Of a stretch of 64,000 nt of DNA, positions 45,926 through 58,988 are shown in pieces. This DNA comes from Asanoa sp. WMMD1127 (GTDB taxonomy: Bacteria; Actinomycetota; Actinomycetes; Mycobacteriales; Micromonosporaceae), in the NCBI RefSeq assembly GCF_029626225.1, contig NZ_JARUBP010000001.1:5022001-5086000 (forward strand), written 5' to 3'. The notes under the pieces are model-generated. The model was not told the origin of the DNA, searched no databases, and saw only the letters and a program-made list of their open reading frames with translations. Each line of letters starts with the position of its first letter. Within the stretch, counting starts at the first letter, position 1. Position numbers and translations under genes: made by a program.

Positions 45926-46121
45926 CACCGTAGGGCGGATCGTTGTGTACTGGCTCGACGTTGATCGAATCGATCGCCACCCGCACCGCTGCGCGCGAGT
46001 TGGAACCGAGTTGCCTTAGGATCCTCTGAACGGCTCGCTCAGCGGCGAGATCTCTCGCAGTGCGCGAGTCCCGAGGCACAACGCCATGACGTTGGCGCCA
46101 AGTTTGGTCCTGGAGGGCGCA

Positions 46122-47513
46122 ATGAACAGCGGCGAACGACTCGGGCGCTGGCACCTTCTGGAAAAACTCGGCCAGGGTGGCAACGGTGAGGTGTGGCGCT
46201 GCCGTGGCCAAGACGGCATCGATGCAGCTATCAAAGTGCTTCTCAAGCAAGGGAACCGAGAGCGGCTCGGCCGGTTTCGCAATGAGATCGAGTTTCTCCT
46301 AGGTCCCGGCCAGCGCAAAGGCGTGGTGCCGATCCTTGATCACAACTTAGGCGGCATCGGCAAGATCTGGTATGTAATGCCCCTGGCGGTTCCAATCCGC
46401 TCGGCTCTCGGTGCTGACCCCACCCCAGAACGGGTAGTTGACGCCATGGCGGCCATCACTCAGACGCTGGCAGCGCTCGCCGAAGAGGGGATCGCTCACC
46501 GGGACGTCAAACCGGACAACCTGCTTTCGCTAAGGGGCGTCTGGTCCATAGGGGACTTTGGCTTGGTCAAGTACCCTGCTGGTCAAGCGCTGACGGAGCA
46601 CGGCCGCAAGCTCGGCCCGACGGACTTCATGGCTCCCGAGATGCGCGAGTCACCCGACTTAGCTGATCCCGAGGCGGCCGACGTCTACTCGGTTGCGAAG
46701 ACGTTGTGGGTTCTACTCGCTGGAGTCAACCTGCCCCTTCCCGGCCAGCACCGCGCCGACGACGACATCTGCCGCTTGACCGCTCGACTCGACTACCGGT
46801 GGGCGCCTCAGCTCGACCTGCTCATCGAGCGTTGCACGGTCAATGACCCCGGCAGGCGTCCGCGGATGCGGGACGTTGCGAACGAACTGGTTGCAATGAT
46901 CAAACCCAACATGGAGCCGGTGGTAGTGGGAGATCTGGCGGACCTGGAACGGCGCATCGCGGCGATGACTGAGCTGCACCGCCGCCGGGACGAAAGCCGA
47001 GACGCCTTCAACAACCGCGTGGCCCAGGCGCACAACCGCCTCGTCGACGAAGTCGCCAAGCCAGCCTACTGGGACTTATCGCGCCGGTTGCCTACGTTCG
47101 GAACCCAGCACCCAACCCAGGTCGCAATGCCTCGAGCCTTGGTCACCTCGCCCTCTCGGGGTTTCGGCAGCCACGTGTGGGGCGGCATGATCGTCGCGCC
47201 CGGGAGCGCTGGCGTTCGAATTGAGCTCGGCGTGGCGCTGCAGGTGGGTGACGGTTCGGGCAACTCCACAGTCGCGGCCGTCCTGAACGTTCACCGGCGA
47301 AACCAAGGCCGCGGATGGAGCTTCTCGATCCTGGAACGCATAGCCGAGACCACCATCGACTCGGCGCATTTCGCCACACTACTGACCGAGTTCCAGGACG
47401 CCTATGCTCGGTGCCTGCCTCAGGCGCTAACCGCGGTAGCAAAGGCGTTGGAGGACGAAAGCGTCAACGGTGCAGCGGCGGATGGAGCCATGTCGCCCTT
47501 GCGGCTGGACTAG
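46122..47513 (+). CDS. soluble Ser/Thr protein kinase with unknown C-terminal domain
   Basis: 463 residues from the ATG at 46122 (GGAGGG site). All kinase motifs are present: Gly loop GQGGNGEV (18-25), Lys38 in AIKVL, HRDVKPDN (126-133), DFG (145-147), APE (171-173). After the kinase domain (about 270) comes a linker with a coiled coil (LERRIAAMTELHRRRDESRD) and an unrecognised domain (about 300-450). No membrane helix, PASTA or other sensor is seen, unlike housekeeping PknB-type kinases. It lies exactly between two recombinase 3' ends. A role in phage defence or element maintenance is possible but unproven. Confidence 0.9.
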   Translation: MNSGERLGRWHLLEKLGQGGNGEVWRCRGQDGIDAAIKVLLKQGNRERLGRFRNEIEFLLGPGQRKGVVPILDHNLGGIGKIWYVMPLAVPIRSALGADPTPERVVDAMAAITQTLAALAEEGIAHRDVKPDNLLSLRGVWSIGDFGLVKYPAGQALTEHGRKLGPTDFMAPEMRESPDLADPEAADVYSVAKTLWVLLAGVNLPLPGQHRADDDICRLTARLDYRWAPQLDLLIERCTVNDPGRRPRMRDVANELVAMIKPNMEPVVVGDLADLERRIAAMTELHRRRDESRDAFNNRVAQAHNRLVDEVAKPAYWDLSRRLPTFGTQHPTQVAMPRALVTSPSRGFGSHVWGGMIVAPGSAGVRIELGVALQVGDGSGNSTVAAVLNVHRRNQGRGWSFSILERIAETTIDSAHFATLLTEFQDAYARCLPQALTAVAKALEDESVNGAAADGAMSPLRLD

Positions 47514-48376
47514 TCGGGCAGCAGGATCGTGCCTGCCAGACGATATCCCGGTTGCGTATCGGTTCGTGTAGCTCCTCGGACACCAACCGAATCCCAACGG
47601 TGCGGCCCAAGATCGATCTGGGCACGCACCGTTCTCGTTTCTGCCTCGTAGGTCAGGTGCAGGCCGAGGCTGCGGTAGACCTCGAGTTTGTGTTCGGGCT
47701 CGGCGTCGCGGATCGCGGTGACCAGATTGCCGAGGTCTTCGACGATCGCGGTGATCTGCTCCGCGGTTGGGATGGTGGTCGTCGACTCCGGCGGTGCTTG
47801 GTTGGTTTGGCGCCGAAGCGCCTGTTCGCGTTCGAGCTGGGTCTCGGCGATCCAGGTTGCGACCACGGCGGGGTCGGCGCCGGCGTCGAGCGCGGCGCGA
47901 TACCGGGCGAGCTTCGCATCGCACTCGGCCATAGATGGCCCGGGTGGCGTCGAAGTGCTCGGTGCGGGGATCCCGGTTTTGGCTTGTTCGATGAGTTTGG
48001 CGATGGTGCGTTGCCGCTGGGCTGGGTTGAGCTCTTGGACGAGCCAGGTGTCCAGCGGCCGGATGAGTTTGTCTTCGCGCATGATGACGGTGCGAGGGTG
48101 GTTGATGGTGTTGGCGAGGGCGTATTCGCGCGGGTAGCGGCACCGGTAGTAGGCGATGCCGTGGGCGTGCATGCCCTCCATCTTCCGGTGGCAGGCGCCG
48201 CAGTGAACGAGGCTCTTGAAGATGTAGGGATGGCGCGAGCGGTGTGCCCGCTTGGGTGAGGTCGCGGTCCGGGCGTGGATGCCGAGCATCGTTTGGGCTT
48301 GGTCGAACACGGCTTCATCGATGAGGGGCTCGTGTGCGATGTCTTTGGAGACTATCCACCGTTCCCGGTTGTTCCA
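47510..48376 (-). pseudogene. large serine recombinase, catalytic domain lost
   Basis: The remaining 288 codons hold the recombinase domain end (WNNRERWIVSKDIAHEPLID), a zinc ribbon (HCGACHRKMEG...YYRC), a long helical region (LEREQALRRQ, coiled coil) and the C-terminal tail. The N-terminal catalytic domain (with the Ser nucleophile) and first DNA-binding part are missing; upstream of 48376 similarity ends. Its stop codon overlaps the kinase's stop on the other strand (CTAG at 47510-47513). No intact integrase for the region is present. Confidence 0.85.
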
Positions 48377-48776
48377 GCCCGGGCCAGGGGCGAGGTGAAG
48401 GAAGGGTCGCTGCAGGGGCGTCGGCGGTGAAGACAGGTTCGTATCGGCAGGCCTCGGTCGGGTCATTCAGGCTTAGATAGCGGCGCCACGCATCGGGCCC
48501 CGTTCTGTTTCGGTGAGCGTCCGGGTTGAGGTATCGCTCGTAGGGCCCGCGGGCGCTGCGCCATGCGTGCCTAACCGAGCAGATCTGCAACACCCACCTC
48601 GTGGAGCACCTACGGTTCCCGCCGGGTGCCCGCCGACCTACGACTCGGTCACGGCGCCATGCTCGGCAGCCGCGCGGTGACAATGCTGATGCACCGGCCG
48701 GCATCCGTAGCTGCCTGGCAGCCGCTGTAGACGACGGTCAAAGCGTGGTTGGCAGGGACCCTCTACAGTGGCGTGT

Positions 48777-50557: not shown

Positions 50558-51103
50558 GTGTCGTATTTCGCGGAGTTTGGCCGATGCCTCGTCTGGGCGG
50601 TCTTTGTCGTCGCGGTCATAAGCAAGTCGCGAGGTCGCCGGCAATTTCGAGAATTCGTCGACTCTCTCGCCGCGCTTAATTACATTCCAAATCGTCTTGT
50701 CGCGGCCGTAGCTGCCGGCGTGGTCGCGGCCGAATGGGCCGTCGCGGTGCTGCTCGTCGTATTGCCGGTGCCGGAGCTGAGGACTTTTGGGCTGGGTCTG
50801 GCCGCCGCACTCCTGACGTGTTTCGCGGTGGCGATCGGCTTGGTCCTCCGCCGAGGGACGTCGGCGGCGTGCCGCTGCTTCGGCGGCAGCGCGTCCGCGC
50901 CATTCGGGTGGCATCACGTGGTCCGCAACGGGGCTCTGGGCCTGATCGGCCTGGCAGGGTGCTATGCCGGTTGCCAGCAGACCGCTCTCGACCTCGGGGC
51001 GCTAGCCGTCATGGCGCCCTTCGGCTTGTTGGCCGCATTCTTAGTGATTCGGTTGGACGAGGTGGTCGCGCTCTTCAAGCCGGCGTCGGCGGCTGGCCGT
51101 TAG
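50558..51103 (+). CDS. MauE/DoxX-like membrane redox protein
   Basis: 181 residues from the GTG at 50558 (GGAG site nine bases before); a longer frame upstream is Arg-rich. Four helices (about 8-24, 48-72, 78-97, 125-175) and the motif AACRCFGG (Cys105, Cys107) are those of the MauE family, relatives of the membrane part of DsbD. Such proteins pass electrons across the membrane to TlpA-like partners. A second Cys pair CYAGC is at residues 135-139. It converges with the exporter operon and overlaps the S26 gene end by 63 bases. It likely supports disulfide chemistry of the peptide locus. Confidence 0.85.
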   Translation: MSYFAEFGRCLVWAVFVVAVISKSRGRRQFREFVDSLAALNYIPNRLVAAVAAGVVAAEWAVAVLLVVLPVPELRTFGLGLAAALLTCFAVAIGLVLRRGTSAACRCFGGSASAPFGWHHVVRNGALGLIGLAGCYAGCQQTALDLGALAVMAPFGLLAAFLVIRLDEVVALFKPASAAGR

Positions 51104-51625
51104 CTGGCCTTGGCGAAGGTCGTTGGCTGGTCCGCTGCTCGAGCGCATGTCGGCCGTCGCCGGGCGCGCCAATGGGCCGCCGCCGAACCTGCGCACCACG
51201 ACTCCGAGAATGCCCGCTGCCGGAACCGCGCCGAAATGACGTGAGTCGTTGCTCGCCTCAGGGTTGTCACCCAGCACCACGAACGTGGCGGGCTCGACCA
51301 ACCCAGAGGTCTGCGCCCAGGTCGGCAGGGCTGCCGGCACCGGCTCGCCCGGGCCGGCAGCGACACGCTTGATAAGCAGAGGTGCGTGCCGGTCACCTTC
51401 CGGGTCGCCGGGCCGGCACGGCCCTGCGACGCGCAGCACGACAACATCGCCCTGGCGGATCCGCGCCATCGGCACCCGGCGCACCACTACCCGATCTCCT
51501 GGCAACAACGTCGGCGCCATGCTCGGCCCGAGCACTGTTACCACCATCGTCCGGCGGCGCAATACGATCAGACCGCCCGCGAGCAGCATCGTCGCCCCGG
51601 CGCCTAGCAGCAGCATCATCATCAT
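51041..51625 (-). CDS. signal peptidase I-like protease (S26 family)
   Basis: 194 residues. One N-terminal membrane helix (about 4-22) anchors the protein. Box B GPSMAPTL has the catalytic Ser35; the Lys86 general base lies in LLIKRVAAGPGE; box E is VVLGDNPEASNDSRHFG. The catalytic dyad is thus complete. It is shorter than housekeeping LepB, as in dedicated S26 peptidases of secretion clusters. Its ATG overlaps the ABC exporter stop (ATGA). The probable substrate is the Cys-rich precursor at 54104-54289, which has an Ala-x-Ala site. Confidence 0.92.
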   Translation of the reverse strand: MMMMLLLGAGATMLLAGGLIVLRRRTMVVTVLGPSMAPTLLPGDRVVVRRVPMARIRQGDVVVLRVAGPCRPGDPEGDRHAPLLIKRVAAGPGEPVPAALPTWAQTSGLVEPATFVVLGDNPEASNDSRHFGAVPAAGILGVVVRRFGGGPLARPATADMRSSSGPANDLRQGQLTASRRRRLEERDHLVQPNH

Positions 51626-53442
51626 GCTATGACCTCCTTGGTCGAGGCGCGGTATCCGGCCGCTTGCAGGGCGAACAGGCCAGCGTAAGCGCCATCCGCC
51701 CCGACCAGCTCGGCGTGAGTGCCCCGTTCTGTGATCTCGCCGTCCGCGAGCACGACGATCATGTCGGCCTCCCGAACAACGCCTAAGCGGTGGGAGATAA
51801 GCAGGCCGGTTCGGCCTCGGCGGTGCTCACGCAATCTGCCGTGAACGTCGTGTTCTGCCTCGGCGTCCAGTGCCGAACTGGGTTCGTCCAGGATGAGCAG
51901 ATCAGAATCTTCGAGGATCAGTCCGCGCGCGATGGACAGACGCTGCTGTTGACCCCCAGATAGCACCACACCCGTTCCGGGCTCATCTTGATCGGACTCA
52001 CCGAGGAAGACCCGAGTCAGCAATGTCTCGTACGCACGGGGGAGGTTCGCCAGGACGTCGTGCACACCGGCCGTGCGTGCCGCTGCCTCGATGCGATGCT
52101 GATCACTCAGAGCGGTGAGGTCGCCGATGGCGATGTTCTCGCGGACCGTCAGATCGTAGGCTGCGGCGTCTTGAAAGACGGTGCGGATCCGTCGACGCAG
52201 TTCGGCCGGATCGACGTCCCGCAGATCGACGCCGTCCCAGAGCACAGCCCCGCGGGTCGGGTCGTAGAGCCGGCACAGCAGCTTGACCAACGTCGACTTC
52301 CCCGCTCCGTTGAGCCCGACCACCGCGGTCGTCCGACCCGCGGGAAGAAACAGGTTCACGCCGCGAAGGACCCAGGGCTGGTCGTCCGCGTAGCGGAACC
52401 ACACGTCCCGTAACTCGACTCCGGTGCGTAGCGGGGGCACCGGGTGCGGACGTGGGCGAACGATGAGGTCGGGTCCGGTGTCCACCACGATCATGAAATG
52501 ACGGAACAACAGCAGCGCCTGGTATCCGGAGACGGTATCGGTGATCATGCCGGCAAGAGCGCTCTGGACGCTGCCTACCGCGGCTACCACCAGCACAACG
52601 TCACCGACCGAGAGCTCACCACTCACCGCGGACCGCACCGCGAACAACAGCAGTCCGCCGATCACGGACGCACTCAGCAGAGCCAGCCCGGTTTGGACGG
52701 CCAACTCTCGGCGGTCGACCCGGGCGTGTTGCAGGTTGATACCGCGGATCTCAGCGGCCATGCGTTGCCACAGATAGCGGCCCACTCCGAACAGGCGCAC
52801 CTCTTTGGCCGCGTCTGGGTTGGTGAGCAGGCTGGAGTAGAACACCTCTCTCCGTTGCGCTGGCCCTATCCGCGCCATCATCGTGGCTCGGCGACGGCTG
52901 ACAGCTACCTCGGCGAGCATCACTGGCACGGCGCTGGACAGCACTACCACGGCTACCCATGGCCCAAGGCCGAACAGTGTGCCGGCAAAGCCGAGCACGA
53001 TGAGCAGTGACCGCAGCATGCCGAGTCCACTGTCCACCACCTCGCCAGGTCCGTTGACACCAGCGGATTGGGCGGTCTGCAGGTGGTCGAGAAAGGCCGG
53101 GTCCTCGAACCGGCGCAGGCCGACGAACCCGTCGACGGCGGCGTACAGCTGGCGTGTGCATTCCAAACGTACCCGGCGGTCCAGCTCCAGTCGTAGGTAG
53201 CGGATGGCATGTGGAGCGAGCGTGGCCGCGACGCCCACCGAGGCGAGTGCACCGGTGAGCCCCACGATGTCCGCCCAGCGGACCTGCCCCGTCGCTAGTC
53301 GATCCACCACCGCCTTTGTCAGCCAGGCCACTGCGAGTGGCGTCAGACCAGCAATCGTCTCGACGGCCAGGTAGCCGGTGAGGTGCGCAGGGGCGGCCCG
53401 TCGGGCAAGCGTCGCCGCCCGACCAGCGGCGCGAGCAATCAT
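51622..53442 (-). CDS. ABC exporter, fused membrane and ATPase domains
   Basis: 606 residues from the ATG at 53442, ten bases after the redoxin stop; an upstream extension only overlaps that gene. The first 340 residues hold six helices (ABC type IV exporter fold). The nucleotide-binding domain has Walker A GLNGAGKSTLVKLL (near 378), signature LSGGQQQRL (near 496) and Walker B LLILDEPSSALD (near 518). There is no N-terminal C39 peptidase domain, so cleavage of a leader must be done by another protein, fitting the S26 peptidase next door. Probably a homodimer exporting the Cys-rich peptide. Confidence 0.92.
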   Translation of the reverse strand: MIARAAGRAATLARRAAPAHLTGYLAVETIAGLTPLAVAWLTKAVVDRLATGQVRWADIVGLTGALASVGVAATLAPHAIRYLRLELDRRVRLECTRQLYAAVDGFVGLRRFEDPAFLDHLQTAQSAGVNGPGEVVDSGLGMLRSLLIVLGFAGTLFGLGPWVAVVVLSSAVPVMLAEVAVSRRRATMMARIGPAQRREVFYSSLLTNPDAAKEVRLFGVGRYLWQRMAAEIRGINLQHARVDRRELAVQTGLALLSASVIGGLLLFAVRSAVSGELSVGDVVLVVAAVGSVQSALAGMITDTVSGYQALLLFRHFMIVVDTGPDLIVRPRPHPVPPLRTGVELRDVWFRYADDQPWVLRGVNLFLPAGRTTAVVGLNGAGKSTLVKLLCRLYDPTRGAVLWDGVDLRDVDPAELRRRIRTVFQDAAAYDLTVRENIAIGDLTALSDQHRIEAAARTAGVHDVLANLPRAYETLLTRVFLGESDQDEPGTGVVLSGGQQQRLSIARGLILEDSDLLILDEPSSALDAEAEHDVHGRLREHRRGRTGLLISHRLGVVREADMIVVLADGEITERGTHAELVGADGAYAGLFALQAAGYRASTKEVIA

Positions 53443-53452
53443 TGGGGTCAGT

Positions 53453-54013
53453 TCAATTCGCGGGTAGGCCGGCGTCGTCCGCATCCGTGATCGAGATGAG
53501 CTCGAAGGTCGACACCTCGACCCTGCCATCCTTCACCAGCACGAATGCGGGGAAACCGGTGACCGCGAAAGCTTGCTGCACCGGGCCTTGGTCAGCTTCC
53601 ACCACCACGGTTGCAACGGGTCGTAGCTGATCGACCAGGACCGCGGACTCCTCGGGGCTGCCGGCGACGACGGCCAGGATGCTGTCTCGTCCGCCGGGGC
53701 GCGCTGCGGCGTACGCGACGAAGGCGGGAAGCCGTTCCTTGCACGGTCGGCACGTCGGGGAGAAAAACGCCACCAGGGGCCGCGTTCCCAGACTGGAAAG
53801 TTCGACCGAGTGTCCGTCAATGCTTTCCGCGTGGATTGGACCGACAGAGGTGCCGACGGGCAGCGCGATGGCGCTGTCAGGACCGAAGGTGTCGCCTCGT
53901 CGGGCCAGTTGTTCGGTGTGCTCGCGCAGTCGACGGACGACGCCGAACGTGAACAGGAGATTCGCTGCTGCCAAAAGTCCAATTAGGATGGTTGTCATCG
54001 CCAGGTAGAACAT
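53453..54013 (-). CDS. TlpA/ResA-like membrane-anchored thiol oxidoreductase
   Basis: 186 residues; TAGGAG ribosome site. One N-terminal helix (about 5-25) anchors a thioredoxin-fold domain (about 55-175) on the outer face. The active site is SPTCRPCKERLP (Cys88, Cys91), and a cis-Pro motif FPAFVLVK follows. TlpA-like proteins reduce or isomerise disulfides, taking electrons from DsbD/MauE-type proteins. The position right after the Cys-rich precursor indicates disulfide quality control of that peptide. First of three genes with short gaps or overlaps. Confidence 0.9.
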   Translation of the reverse strand: MFYLAMTTILIGLLAAANLLFTFGVVRRLREHTEQLARRGDTFGPDSAIALPVGTSVGPIHAESIDGHSVELSSLGTRPLVAFFSPTCRPCKERLPAFVAYAAARPGGRDSILAVVAGSPEESAVLVDQLRPVATVVVEADQGPVQQAFAVTGFPAFVLVKDGRVEVSTFELISITDADDAGLPAN

Positions 54014-54059
54014 GGGGCTCCTATGCGGACGTGCGGGTGTTTACGACCGGCGGCGATCA

Positions 54060-54088
54060 CCGGAGCCGGCGGGTTTGCCCGGCTCCGG
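54060..54088 (-). terminator. intercistronic hairpin after the precursor gene
   Basis: CCGGAGCCGG and CCGGCTCCGG form a perfect ten-base-pair stem with a nine-base loop. It lies between the precursor stop (54104) and the redoxin start (54013). No U-tract follows on the minus strand. It could allow partial termination or protect the 5' precursor mRNA, so that the precursor is made in excess over the machinery. Confidence 0.65.
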
Positions 54089-54103
54089 TGATCTGCTTTA
54101 AGG

Positions 54104-54289
54104 TCAGCAGCCGTCACCGACGCGTCGGCAGGCCTTGCACCCGAAGCCAGGGCAGCAGTACTGCGTGTACAGCGTGATGCCGCGGCAGTAGCAGAACTTC
54201 TCGTAGCACACGTTAGCTGCGCGAGCCTCCGTTCGGGGCACCACGACGCCGACGACGCGGTCGGCAAGCATTGTCACCATCCGACTCAC
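54104..54289 (-). CDS. Cys-rich secreted peptide precursor
   Basis: 61 residues from the GTG at 54289, five bases after AAGGAGG (54295-54301). Later ATGs at 54280 and 54271 are too far from that site; an earlier ATG at 54337 has no site. Residues 1-24 (MSRMVTMLADRVVGVVVPRT, then EARA) form a leader without the long hydrophobic core of a Sec signal. An Ala-x-Ala site precedes residue 25. The predicted 37-residue product has eight Cys (28, 33, 35, 45, 46, 51, 54, 61), enough for four disulfides, and ends in Cys. Redoxin, ABC exporter and S26 genes follow. No family recognised. Confidence 0.8.
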   Translation of the reverse strand: MSRMVTMLADRVVGVVVPRTEARAANVCYEKFCYCRGITLYTQYCCPGFGCKACRRVGDGC

Positions 54290-54307
54290 CGGAACCTCCT
54301 TGAGTTG

Positions 54308-54326
54308 GGTCGCGAGAATCGCGACC
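54308..54326 (-). promoter_or_regulatory. 5' UTR hairpin just before the precursor ribosome site
   Basis: GGTCGCGA-GAA-TCGCGACC (plus strand) is a perfect eight-base-pair stem with a three-base loop. In the minus-strand mRNA it ends six bases before AAGGAGG. It could stabilise the mRNA or tune translation. Confidence 0.55.
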
Positions 54327-54365
54327 GCATTGATCACTGACGACTCATCACACCGCGCGGATCAC

Positions 54366-54399
54366 AGTTGAGCCAGGACGTTCAACACGACGTTGAACA
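54366..54399. promoter_or_regulatory. direct repeats resembling a SARP binding site
   Basis: GACGTTCAACA (54377-54387) and GACGTTGAACA (54389-54399) match at 10 of 11 positions, 12 bases apart. CAGTTGAGCCA at 54366-54376 looks like a weaker third unit. SARP regulators bind direct repeats spaced about one helical turn. The site is 77-110 bases upstream of the precursor start and on the side facing the SARP gene. It also forms a GTTCAA/TTGAAC dyad. Confidence 0.5.
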
Positions 54400-54685: not shown

Positions 54686-56611
54686 GTGGTGAATCTGCGC
54701 GTACTCGGTGACATGCAGGCGTTGGTGGGCGGCCGCGCCTTGGAGTTGGGGCCGGCGAAACAGCGATTGGTGTTCGCGGTGCTCGCCGTCGACGCGGGTC
54801 GCAATGTGTCTATCGAGGCGCTGCTCGACCGTGTCTGGGATGATGCGCGGCCGGCCGATGCCCGAGGGGCGCTCTACACGTATCTCACCCGGATCCGCCG
54901 GATCCTGACCGACGCGCAGCCCGGTGCGGCGGCGCCGATCACCGTAGTCCGGGGGCGCGCCGGCTACCGCCTGGACACCAACCCGGACAACGTTGACCTG
55001 CACCGGCTTCGTCGACTCGCCGAGCGGGCCTTGGCGCTCCCACCAGGGGATGCCGGCCGCTCGGCGCTCCTTCGCGAAGCAATCGATCTCTGGCGTGGGG
55101 AGCCGCTGGACGGCCTGCCGGGTGGATGGGCGGCCCGCGTCCGCGAGAGTGTGCGGCTGCAGCTCATGCGGGTTCTGCTCAGCTGGGCCGACGGGGAGCT
55201 CCTCCAGGGCCGGCCTTGCCCGGTCGCCGACCGCCTCGCCGAGGCCGTCGACCACCATCCATACGTCGAACCGTTGGTGCTCCGGCTGATGCGCGCCTTG
55301 TATGTCGGGGGGCGCCGCGCCGAGGCGCTTGAGCTGTACGCCCGCACCCGCGCGAACCTGGCCGATGAGTTCGGGGTGGATCCGGGAGCGGAACTTCAGG
55401 AACTGCACCGGGAAATTCTCCGCGGCACGCTGCGTGGGCCCCTGACCGCTGTCTCGGCCGGCCAGCCGCGGGCCGCCGCCGCCCTGCCGCTGGTTACGGT
55501 TCCGTCGACCGCGGGGATAGGGGAGACCGCGCACTCGCTCGGCTGTCACCTGCCGGCCGACCTGCCCGATCACGTCGGATGCGATCCAGAGATCTTGTGC
55601 GCGATGCGTGTTCTCCAGGTCGAAAGTCCCCGTTCCGGAGCCGCGGCCGGGCCGGTAGTGGTCCTGTCCGGACCGAGTGGAGTGGGCAAGACCGCATTGA
55701 GCGTTCGGTTAGCGCATCTACTGCGACCCTCTTATCCGGACGCCCAGATCTTCGTGGGTCTTAGTGGTCGCCGCAGCGATCCGGATGATGCTCTGGACCA
55801 GGTGCTGAGGGCCCTTGGCGCGACGGACTTGGCAGGTCTGTCCACACTGGATCAGAAGGTCGGGCGGTATCGATCTTTGCTCAGCCACCGGCGGGTGCTC
55901 ATCGTGCTCGACTCGCCGTTCAGCGCCGACGAGGTGCGGCCGTTGATGCCTGGAGGCCCGGGTAGCGCACTCATCGTGTCCAGCCGGACCCTGCTGACCA
56001 CCCTCCCGGGGGCCGAACATATCGACGTGCCCCTGCTCGACAGAGCCAACGCCACCGCGCTGTTGGCTAGCATCGTCGGACCGCAGCGGTTGCGAGCCGA
56101 GCCAGAGGCGACTGACGCGCTTGTCGCGATGTGCGCCGGACTCCCGCTGGCGCTGCGCATCGTCGGCGCTCGTATCTCCGCCCGACCGCACCGCCTGATG
56201 GCCCGGCTCGTCGAACGGATGAGCGATGATCACGCGCGCTTGCACGAGCTGACCGCTGACGGGCTGAGCGTGCGGGCCAGCATCGCGATCGGCTACCGGG
56301 CGCTCAACTCGGCCGCCCGGCGGACGTTCCGGCTCCTCGGTTACCTGGGCGTGCCAGCGGTCACCGGAGAGGTGGCGGCGGCGCTTGTCGATGGTTCGGT
56401 GGACGAGGCCGACGAACTGCTTGAACAGCTTGCGGACGGGCGTCTCGTAAGCGCGATACACGGCCCGGTCTTCGGCGTGCCCTCTTACCGGATGCACGAT
56501 CTCGTGCGGATCTTCGCCCGCGAGCGCGCGCTAGCGGAGGAGTCACAGGAGTCGCTGGCAGCGGCGATAGCCCGAACACAGGCTCTGGGAGTCGTCGACG
56601 ACACCGCGTGA
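54686..56611 (+). CDS. SARP-family regulator with NB-ARC ATPase domain
   Basis: 641 residues from GTG 54686 (or 54689). Residues 1-95 are the OmpR-like DNA-binding domain (LRVLGDMQALVGGRALELGP, SIEALLDRVWDDARPADARG). The bacterial transcriptional activation domain follows (about 100-250; ALYVGGRRAEALELYARTR, LADEFGVDPGAELQELHREI). Then an NB-ARC ATPase (SGPSGVGKTAL near 331) with a winged helix at the end. No C-terminal TPR part, unlike the larger AfsR. SARPs switch on secondary-metabolite clusters. It diverges from the peptide operon and is the likely activator. Confidence 0.92.
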   Translation: MVNLRVLGDMQALVGGRALELGPAKQRLVFAVLAVDAGRNVSIEALLDRVWDDARPADARGALYTYLTRIRRILTDAQPGAAAPITVVRGRAGYRLDTNPDNVDLHRLRRLAERALALPPGDAGRSALLREAIDLWRGEPLDGLPGGWAARVRESVRLQLMRVLLSWADGELLQGRPCPVADRLAEAVDHHPYVEPLVLRLMRALYVGGRRAEALELYARTRANLADEFGVDPGAELQELHREILRGTLRGPLTAVSAGQPRAAAALPLVTVPSTAGIGETAHSLGCHLPADLPDHVGCDPEILCAMRVLQVESPRSGAAAGPVVVLSGPSGVGKTALSVRLAHLLRPSYPDAQIFVGLSGRRSDPDDALDQVLRALGATDLAGLSTLDQKVGRYRSLLSHRRVLIVLDSPFSADEVRPLMPGGPGSALIVSSRTLLTTLPGAEHIDVPLLDRANATALLASIVGPQRLRAEPEATDALVAMCAGLPLALRIVGARISARPHRLMARLVERMSDDHARLHELTADGLSVRASIAIGYRALNSAARRTFRLLGYLGVPAVTGEVAAALVDGSVDEADELLEQLADGRLVSAIHGPVFGVPSYRMHDLVRIFARERALAEESQESLAAAIARTQALGVVDDTA

Positions 56612-57262: not shown

Positions 57263-57419
57263 GCCGATAGTCGGCCCGTGATCATCAAGAATCCGTTCAG
57301 ATTCGCTACCGGATCTCGCCGCGATGATTTGCCCAGACACAGCCTAGGCCTCGTCACCGTCGCCGATCCGATGCTGCGTCTGTCCTTTTCGGATCAACTC
57401 CTTGCGAAAGGAAGCCTTC

Positions 57420-58988
57420 GTGCAACGAACTTTCCGCCGCGCTCTCGGCCGCTCGGCAGCTTTCTCCGCCCTGGCGCTCGTCGCAGGAGGTTTGGTCGGG
57501 TTGACGCCCGCGCCTGCCCAAGCCTCGTCGATCGACGGACCGATCGGTCGCAGCGAGATCCTTTCCCGCGCGCAGAACTGGGTCGACCGTAAGATCACCT
57601 ATACCCAGACCGGTCCCTATGCCAGCGACCCTGAGGGCGCGCACACCTACCGGCGCGACTGCTCCGGCCTGGTATCGATGGTGTGGCACCTGAACCGAAG
57701 CTACGTGACGGGCGACTTCCAGAAGAGCAACTCCCGGTGGACCACTCTCGCCAGCATCGACGCTTTCCAGCCTGGCGATGCGATGGTCCGCACCGGCCAC
57801 ATTGAGTTGTTCGCCTTCTGGAAGGACAAGGGCGACCACAGCAAGGGCGCCTATGTCTACTCGTTCAACTCCGATGGGCAGACAGTCCAGAACCCTTACG
57901 CGAGAAACAACGCCGGCGCTCTAGGTTTCAATGACGCGGACGACCTGCGGACGTACAAACCGATCAGGCGGACGGGACTGACGAGCGGGCCGGCCGGGCG
58001 GAAGGCGCCGGCGCTGGTCCGAGACGACGGTGACGGGACGATGAGCATCTACCGGTGGAACTCCACCGGCAGCGCCTTCGACCACACGACCGACTACAAG
58101 GGCGATGGTGGTTTCAACGTTTCGAACGTCGGTGAACGAGTCGCTTCCGGCGACGTCGACGGCGACGGCAACGATGACATCGTCATGGCCTACCAGCTCG
58201 CCGACGGCAGCTTCGGCTTCTACGTCTTCGACGAGGGCCTGTCCAGCAAGGGCCGCTGGTACACCTCGGGCCCGTTCGGCCTGGGCAGCGTCGGCGGCCG
58301 TCTGGTGGTGGGTGACTTCACCGGTGACGGCAAGGCGGAGCCTGCGCTGGTCCGTGACAACGGTGACGCCACGACGACCATCTATCGGTGGGTCTCCACG
58401 GGTAGCAGCTTCGCGCGTACCACTGACTATGTCGGTGAGGGTTCGTTCTCGCTGGGGAACGTGGGTGACCGTGTCGCGGCCGGCGATGTCACCGGCGACG
58501 GCAAGGCCGACATTGTGATGGCGTACCAGATCAGCGACGGCACGTTCGGCTACTACGTGTGGAGTGCCGGCCTGACCAGTCTCGGCCGCTGGTACACCTC
58601 GGGCCCGTTCGGCCTGGGCAGCGTCGGCAACCGCCTGGTGGTGGGTGACTTCACCGGTGACGGCAAGGCGGAGCCTGCGCTGGTCCGTGACAACGGTGAC
58701 GCCACGACGACCATCTATCGGTGGGTCTCCACGGGTAGCAGCTTCGCGCGTACCACTGACTATGTCGGTGAGGGTTCGTTCTCGCTGGGGAACGTGGGTG
58801 ACCGTGTCGCGGCCGGCGATGTCACCGGCGACGGCAAGGCCGACATTGTGATGGCGTACCAGATCAGCGACGGCACGTTCGGCTACTACGTGTGGAGTGC
58901 CGGCCTGACCAGTCTCGGCCGCTGGTACACCTCGGGCCCGTTCAACTTGGGCAGCGTCGACGGTCGCCTGGTCCTCGGCAACTGGTGA
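57420..58988 (+). CDS. secreted NlpC/P60-like hydrolase with FG-GAP/VCBS repeats
   Basis: 522 residues from GTG 57420 (AAAGGAAG site). A signal peptide (about 1-35, ending PAQASS) precedes an NlpC/P60-type domain with catalytic Cys in RRDCSGLVSMVWHL and His in RTGHIELFAFW. From about residue 195 there are about three FG-GAP/VCBS-type repeats (Asp-rich, GDFTGDGKAEPALVRDNGDA), likely a calcium-binding beta-propeller. Two of the repeat units are nearly identical in DNA. Predicted role: cell-wall peptide hydrolysis. Ends in RLVLGNW like the lysozyme that follows. Confidence 0.85.
   Translation: MQRTFRRALGRSAAFSALALVAGGLVGLTPAPAQASSIDGPIGRSEILSRAQNWVDRKITYTQTGPYASDPEGAHTYRRDCSGLVSMVWHLNRSYVTGDFQKSNSRWTTLASIDAFQPGDAMVRTGHIELFAFWKDKGDHSKGAYVYSFNSDGQTVQNPYARNNAGALGFNDADDLRTYKPIRRTGLTSGPAGRKAPALVRDDGDGTMSIYRWNSTGSAFDHTTDYKGDGGFNVSNVGERVASGDVDGDGNDDIVMAYQLADGSFGFYVFDEGLSSKGRWYTSGPFGLGSVGGRLVVGDFTGDGKAEPALVRDNGDATTTIYRWVSTGSSFARTTDYVGEGSFSLGNVGDRVAAGDVTGDGKADIVMAYQISDGTFGYYVWSAGLTSLGRWYTSGPFGLGSVGNRLVVGDFTGDGKAEPALVRDNGDATTTIYRWVSTGSSFARTTDYVGEGSFSLGNVGDRVAAGDVTGDGKADIVMAYQISDGTFGYYVWSAGLTSLGRWYTSGPFNLGSVDGRLVLGNW
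58281..58946 (+). repeat. tandem 333-base near-identical FG-GAP repeat
   Basis: Bases 58281-58613 and 58614-58946 are two copies of a 111-codon unit. They differ at only a handful of positions, mainly near the first 20 bases and at the final junction, and synonymous sites are also conserved. This implies recent duplication or gene conversion. Confidence 0.9.

Follow-up and report, generated by a model that had tools for sequence, protein, structure and literature searches.

The stretch of DNA analyzed here, 64,000 nucleotides of the genome of Asanoa sp. WMMD1127 (contig NZ_JARUBP010000001.1, positions 5,022,001 to 5,086,000; hereafter the window), carries on its minus strand a small gene for a cysteine-rich peptide, followed by genes for a TlpA-like protein, an ATP-binding cassette (ABC) exporter and an S26 signal-peptidase-like enzyme, with a MauE-family gene converging on them and a SARP regulator diverging. 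In this study, we describe the peptide as one member of a large family of precursors, in which a single type of leader precedes highly diverse cores, and we propose a model for the role of each of its neighbors in the export, cleavage and folding of the product.

Results

The precursor gene (54104..54289, minus strand) encodes 61 residues, eight of them cysteines, and begins with GTG. The open reading frame (ORF) called mechanically, 54104-54337, is overlong; the start was placed at the GTG at 54289 on the basis of a ribosome-binding site, AAGGAGG at 54295-54301, five bases upstream. Alignment of 39 rows delimits a leader of residues 1-24 (54218..54289, minus strand), which closes with ...LADRVVGVVVPRTEARA and its AxA end, and leaves residues 25-61 (54107..54217, minus strand) as the core, which holds all eight cysteines and has a computed monoisotopic mass of 4141.71 Da with four disulfides. 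An initial annotation, made from the window's sequence, had singled out an eight-cysteine small ORF and its residues 25-61: with a ribosome-binding site and a leader family in other genomes, the ORF is a real gene of a large family, and those residues are the core once translation starts at this GTG. The window peptide has no match in Pfam or NCBIfam, and searches with 39 and 89 of its relatives gave only stray, single-member matches with E values up to 0.1, so that the family, large as it is, has no model in either database. AlphaFold2 folds the window core into three strands, with a predicted local distance difference test score (pLDDT) of 83-86 across residues 31-60; in the model of the whole precursor (mean pLDDT 68.7, predicted template modeling score 0.43) the leader is poorly defined.

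The gene next to the precursor (53453..54013, minus strand) encodes a TlpA-like thioredoxin-fold protein with a CRPC motif and, by eye, a hydrophobic N-terminus (Pfam Thioredoxin, 24.7 bits, cut-off 23.5), among whose closest solved relatives are ResA and a thiol-disulfide oxidoreductase of sporulation. The ABC exporter (51622..53442, minus strand; Pfam, the start being the ATG that fits the family) has its membrane and ATPase domains fused, and no C39 peptidase domain was found on it by Pfam scan. Its gene overlaps by four bases that of the S26 enzyme (51041..51625, minus strand), which shows the Ser/Lys dyad with GPSM and IKR motifs (Pfam Peptidase_S26, 66 bits) and also scores 64.6 bits as NCBIfam signal peptidase I, for a cut-off of 47. 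The convergent MauE-family membrane protein (50558..51103, plus strand; Pfam MauE, 84.3 bits) carries CRCFG, a CxCFG motif, and the divergent gene (54689..56611, plus strand; start chosen by us) encodes a SARP/AfsR-like regulator with BTAD and NB-ARC domains recognized by Pfam. Pfam and motifs thus agree with the initial annotation on every one of these components; its further statement that lanthionine, YcaO and radical-SAM tailoring genes are missing holds for the ten window proteins between 46 and 59 kb that were scanned with Pfam. A defense reading of the cluster was dropped because PADLOC returned only matches to the ABC ATPase type of the exporter.

One leader, many cores

A first genome scan with the window peptide as query found no relative, because the cores are too variable for such a search, and a leader profile together with a TlpA anchor solved the problem. 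In a search of 101 genomes with the peptide, mostly weak matches were obtained in 18, its own genome included, and the inspection of ORFs around these matches and around ABC matches brought out a shared leader with the consensus LADRxLxxxVPKxxAxA, ending in a signal-peptidase-like AxA and followed by a cysteine-rich core. Residues P15 and A19 are invariant in the alignment of 39 precursors, and P-x(3-5)-AxA is present in 89 of 91 precursors. The leader model was built from those 39, mostly chosen by an ORF filter (at least six cysteines, near matches), and contains no core columns; some of the genomes and loci searched with it also supplied training rows. The profile matched 121 of 354 genomes of the window's family and 161 of 341 genomes of a second one, the two families surveyed being, as it appears, Micromonosporaceae and Streptosporangiaceae. 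At the level of the class it matched 24 of 394 genomes and, phylum-wide, two of 198, namely the window's own genome and a weak match with stop codons.

The fetched loci contain 183 distinct cores. Conservation of the cysteine pattern had been put forward initially as a mark of a real peptide: the number of cysteines (4-12 per precursor across family members) and their spacing vary between subfamilies, whereas the leader and an even number of cysteines are kept. This number is even in 175 of the 183 cores, in 84 of the 88 precursors of the TlpA-anchored set described below, and in 119 of the 124 precursors of an earlier set, of which 51 of 55 remain even at less than 50% core identity (binomial P 1e-11); random parity would yield about half. 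To compare substitution rates, we used 55 close pairs that overlap, are not independent of one another, and were required to agree in length and in cysteine positions; the ratios of non-synonymous to synonymous change (dN/dS) were 0.11 for the leader and 0.23 for the core at equal synonymous difference (pS 0.26). Judged by these ratios, the precursor genes are coding and under purifying selection, with cores changing about twice as fast as leaders. Precursors can also stand together: a cluster of Rhizohabitans arisaemae (L240:6778-12661) has seven different ones, six before the TlpA gene and one after it.

A conserved neighborhood

With TlpA as the only bait, we retained 80 loci in named genomes: 212 stretches yielded 147 relatives, of which the best 80 were kept, several of them from one genome. 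A precursor was recognized in 75, accompanied across the set by ABC in 74, S26 in 72, MauE in 51 and SARP in 49, and in 73 of the 75 no more than 600 bp separate it from a machinery gene. The leader-only model gave no match on the same DNA reversed, a simple control in which codon structure is not preserved. The commonest gene order is precursor-MauE-TlpA-ABC-S26 (17 loci). Around ABC as anchor (30 loci with 1.5-kb flanks, the window's included) we found the precursor in 22, S26 in 26, TlpA in 25 and MauE in 16. Hosts bearing precursors belong to Nonomuraea, Microbispora, Streptosporangium, Actinomadura, Micromonospora, Dactylosporangium, Pseudonocardia, Nocardiopsis and Streptomyces.

The residues expected to be catalytic recur as well. 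The Ser and Lys of S26 are kept in all 71 matches of sufficient length (three short ones of 74 set aside), CxCFG in all 49 such MauE matches (two short ones of 51 set aside), and CxxC in 81 of 82 TlpA matches. Genome comparison therefore bears out what had been read from the window alone, that is, the gene association, the short ORF beside the same genes elsewhere, the precursor family with its cleavage motif, and the S26 Ser/Lys, MauE CxC and TlpA CxxC residues.

Beside the 80 clusters, no additional gene was found to recur at a constant position (ORFs of at least 90 residues, and ORFs of 35-150 residues near the precursor), nor was any class-defining tailoring family of ribosomally synthesized and post-translationally modified peptides (RiPPs) at such a position. 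Two groups of neighbors (21 and 19 loci) occur at variable distances and were regarded as generic; three smaller groups, at constant positions, fall on the SARP frame or next to it in loci L191-L198, which are eight close relatives, and were read as shadow ORFs. Eleven loci with orphan precursors share no neighbor save an ABC ATPase, present in three.

Co-occurrence across genomes

Among the 354 genomes of the window's family, 117 have both precursor and TlpA, four the precursor only, 21 TlpA only and 212 neither (Fisher P 1.2e-65; cut-offs, E up to 1e-4 for the precursor and up to 1e-20 for TlpA, the latter scored on ten candidates). MauE was sought at the level of genomes for 28 of the 29 loci that lack it nearby, L242 being left out (its genome, apparently G012, has one MauE). 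Of the 23 genomes in which the sampled clusters are devoid of MauE, 22 have it elsewhere, the best matches reaching E 1.5e-35 or lower. Within the window's family, it is found in eight of eight genomes that bear the system (the window's own included) and in none of 19 system-free ones; these are 19 of 20 genomes named among the 212 double negatives, G485 (77% complete) being left out, and the 22 of 23 and eight of eight results serve as positive controls for the search. Because it is present elsewhere in genomes whose clusters lack it and absent from system-free ones, MauE behaves, as far as its distribution can tell, as a genome-level partner of the system.

Copy numbers differ widely between genomes, those of precursors being minimum values (scored on 15-31 candidates in each genome), while the counts per genome cover ABC, TlpA and MauE. 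The window's genome has one match each for ABC, TlpA, MauE and precursor. In G009, G775 and G012, ABC, TlpA and MauE are each present once, against at least 12, at least eight and at least 17 precursors, respectively; in G774, a single ABC with two TlpA and two MauE stands against at least 14. None of the 12 precursors located (of 17) in G012 lies closer than about 80 kb to the ABC gene, and none of the seven located (of 12) in G009 closer than about 195 kb, with none in the 1.5-kb flanks of ABC in the latter genome. The machinery of G012 is itself dispersed, with TlpA, ABC with S26, and MauE at three places (C1:29104, C4:636860, C4:773478). The 14-Mb genome G777 (with the same coordinates as G1264, source of loci L199, L200 and L251) has 19 ABC, three MauE and at least 17 precursors; there, dedicated clusters appear expanded while few redox partners are shared.

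Other genes of the window

An ORF a few kilobases from the cluster (47510-48466, minus strand) has a recombinase zinc-ribbon domain as its only Pfam match and resembles the C-terminal part of a serine recombinase; it is perhaps the remnant of a mobile element. Downstream of the SARP gene, the product of 57402-58988 (plus strand) has several FG-GAP repeats by Pfam, some near-identical by eye. The product of 46086-47513 (plus strand) has a protein kinase domain with a C-terminal extension that matches nothing in Pfam.

Discussion

Taken together, these results make it probable that the cluster is a leader-directed production line for disulfide-rich secreted peptides, based on export by the ABC protein, cleavage by the S26 enzyme at AxA and folding by TlpA and MauE. 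In such a scheme, the SARP regulator would turn the cluster on, and the short charged leader would address the reduced precursor to the ABC exporter and thus across the membrane. The membrane-bound S26 peptidase would then cut after AxA on the outer side, and the TlpA-like protein, recharged by MauE, would pair the cysteines of the core, forming four disulfides in the peptide of the window; the leader would be the constant address and the core the variable product. We infer ABC transport, S26 cleavage, TlpA/MauE oxidation (net oxidation or isomerization) and SARP control, as well as the order of the steps and the direction of the redox flow, from the genes and their motifs. The strongest sequence evidence that the cysteines are fully paired is the combination of even parity with CxxC in TlpA and CxCFG in MauE. 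As in RiPPs, a ribosomal precursor with leader and core is present; the modification and the leader removal that also define that class are here predicted, as disulfides and AxA cleavage.

Concerning function, the products would be secreted effectors, for which we lean slightly towards an antimicrobial role, and otherwise towards signaling or development. That the same production line delivers signals or developmental peptides of filamentous actinobacteria, rather than weapons, is the less likely outcome, and one to be taken seriously: the named host genera grow as filaments, close pairs are under purifying selection, and the surroundings of the 80 clusters revealed no recurrent immunity gene. 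On the other hand, SARP regulators suit secondary metabolism, and the hypervariability of the cores, together with precursor matches that number at least 17 in some genomes, speaks more for effectors than for a conserved signal.

A second question is how the peptide leaves the cell. An AxA site and an S26 enzyme are hallmarks of the Sec pathway, and our S26 protein scores above the signal peptidase I cut-off, so that the AxA could be an ordinary signal-peptide site, used in export by Sec (or by the twin-arginine translocation pathway, Tat), with the ABC protein moving another substrate or the mature peptide. The leaders, however, carry charges and for the most part lack a hydrophobic core (n = 186; median of five charged residues, median longest run free of D, E, K, R, N, Q and H of seven residues), which makes Sec export unlikely and the ABC protein the natural carrier. 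Nine of the 186 do reach an uncharged run of at least 11, as Sec would favor, but the leader consensus has no twin-arginine and the ABC protein accompanies TlpA in 74 of 80 loci. On balance, we regard Sec or Tat export as improbable, and retain the ABC route.

More improbable still is that the cores bind metal, like metallothioneins, or bear a cofactor, like the mau-type quinone-cofactor enzymes, with TlpA and MauE keeping their cysteines reduced. ResA, mentioned above among the solved structures closest to our TlpA-like protein, is a reductant, which would suit this role. So would the place of MauE in methylamine dehydrogenase maturation (PMC7794033). Against this, a Pfam search at E 0.1 matched none of 89 precursors to the light chain of methylamine dehydrogenase, nor was a match found in the Protein Data Bank (PDB); the TlpA-like protein has no NCBIfam MauD match at E 1, and even parity suits pairing. 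Kinship with that light chain, considered because of a resemblance, was consequently discarded. Finally, high-GC DNA yields many spurious cysteine-rich ORFs, several of which we met during ORF inspection, but chance frames are a practically negligible explanation for short ORFs that have a ribosome-binding site, dN/dS well below 1 and a leader recognized in 75 of 80 loci against none in reversed DNA.

Several observations weigh against the production line proposed here. Eight of the 183 cores have an odd number of cysteines, and that count excludes six leader matches devoid of P-x(3-5)-AxA, of which one is odd and looks broken. Five of the 80 TlpA loci (L241, L242, L244, L256 and L262) have no recognized precursor, two of these being apparently in genomes with scattered precursors, and across the window's family TlpA occurs without precursor (21 genomes) and precursor without TlpA (four). 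MauE is near only 51 of the 80 loci, is convergent and outside the operon in the window, and was not seen in one of the 23 genomes searched for it. The cores are barely more alike than shuffled cores (0.38 versus 0.35), the 55 close pairs gave no sign of the diversifying selection looked for, and the nine leaders with long uncharged runs depart from the charged type. The model of the whole precursor, with its modest scores, found nothing significant in the PDB with Foldseek (best E 1.8). The lack of a recurrent immunity gene weakens the antimicrobial role, and no experiment on the products was found in the open-licence papers searched.

The many precursors facing a single ABC exporter in some genomes suggest a hub addressed by the leader. 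We put forward tentatively, giving it somewhat less than even credence, the broader proposal that this is a general secretion-and-folding hub for hypervariable disulfide mini-proteins, addressed only by the leader of about 24 residues. If so, in some actinobacteria a set of at least 8-17 precursors would share a single ABC, with TlpA and MauE in one or two copies each; a core swapped behind the leader would be exported, trimmed and folded, and the layout would be comparable to that of the prochlorosins, the product to defensin or venom repertoires. Repertoires of disulfide-rich peptides are usually associated with animals and plants. Here, a cluster recurring in several actinobacterial families, with one leader and highly diverse cores, offers a large bacterial family of disulfide-rich peptide candidates and a leader model with which to mine for more. 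It also provides a testable case of an S26 peptidase replacing C39 in peptide export, a dedicated setting for MauE and a possible production route for disulfide-rich peptides.

Comparison with known systems

Sublancin is a disulfide bacteriocin with a dedicated oxidoreductase and an ABC exporter, and exporters of the pediocin type carry a C39 peptidase that cuts after Gly-Gly. Pediocin PA-1 is likewise described as a disulfide bacteriocin with a dedicated oxidoreductase, PedC (PMC4919988). Both resemble the present system in their small cysteine-containing peptide with a leader, ABC export and thiol-disulfide oxidoreductase. The present system differs from the pediocin type in lacking C39, in having AxA instead of Gly-Gly (89 of 91 precursors), a separate S26 enzyme and a MauE partner, and in the very many cores behind one leader type. 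By its description, TMcin also has its leader cut by a membrane protease, one disulfide made by a dedicated DsbA-family protein and export by an ABC transporter (PMC13252029), all three with counterparts here; at that same level of description, it differs in its precursor, a membrane-inserted helix, and in its protease, of the S2P clan. The mau cluster shares with ours a MauE and a thioredoxin-like protein serving a cysteine-rich polypeptide, but our precursors do not match the methylamine dehydrogenase light chain, nor our TlpA-like protein the NCBIfam MauD model. In prochlorosin-type systems, one enzyme serves many dispersed precursors; a conserved leader, a variable core and many precursors per machinery are found here too, although here the precursors would have export, cleavage and disulfide folding in common, and not lanthionine synthesis.

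The closest likeness is to clusters flagged in 2020 by decRiPPter, which lists three candidate RiPP families of Streptomyces with mauE, one of them also with mauD, and precursors of at least eight cysteines; mauE is proposed there to act in the modification of RiPP precursors, a role that the authors call speculative (PMC7794033). Those families and the window have in common a MauE and a TlpA-like (mauD-like) protein beside an eight-cysteine precursor. The decRiPPter filter required a transporter, a peptidase and a regulator, and the genomes mined were from Streptomyces only, among them S. viridosporus T7A (PMC7794033); in S. viridosporus NRRL 2414 (L218, a 4.4-kb contig) we find a 10-cysteine precursor with MauE, TlpA and part of an ABC gene. 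The main text of that paper does not use the words S26, signal peptidase, SARP or thioredoxin, whereas the present system has both S26 and SARP, and in the text available we did not find the leader motif, the AxA, the cysteine parity, the spread beyond Streptomyces, MauE at the genome level or the hub layout. The initial annotation, which could name no described system of this make-up, must therefore be amended, similar mauE clusters having been flagged before, although within the open-licence literature searched they were found in that one paper only. The likeness, drawn from the description and not from precursor sequences, suggests that the decRiPPter mauE families are at least partly the same system. 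Set among these relatives, the cluster is a real and widespread peptide production line, best filed as a variant among the disulfide peptide export systems.

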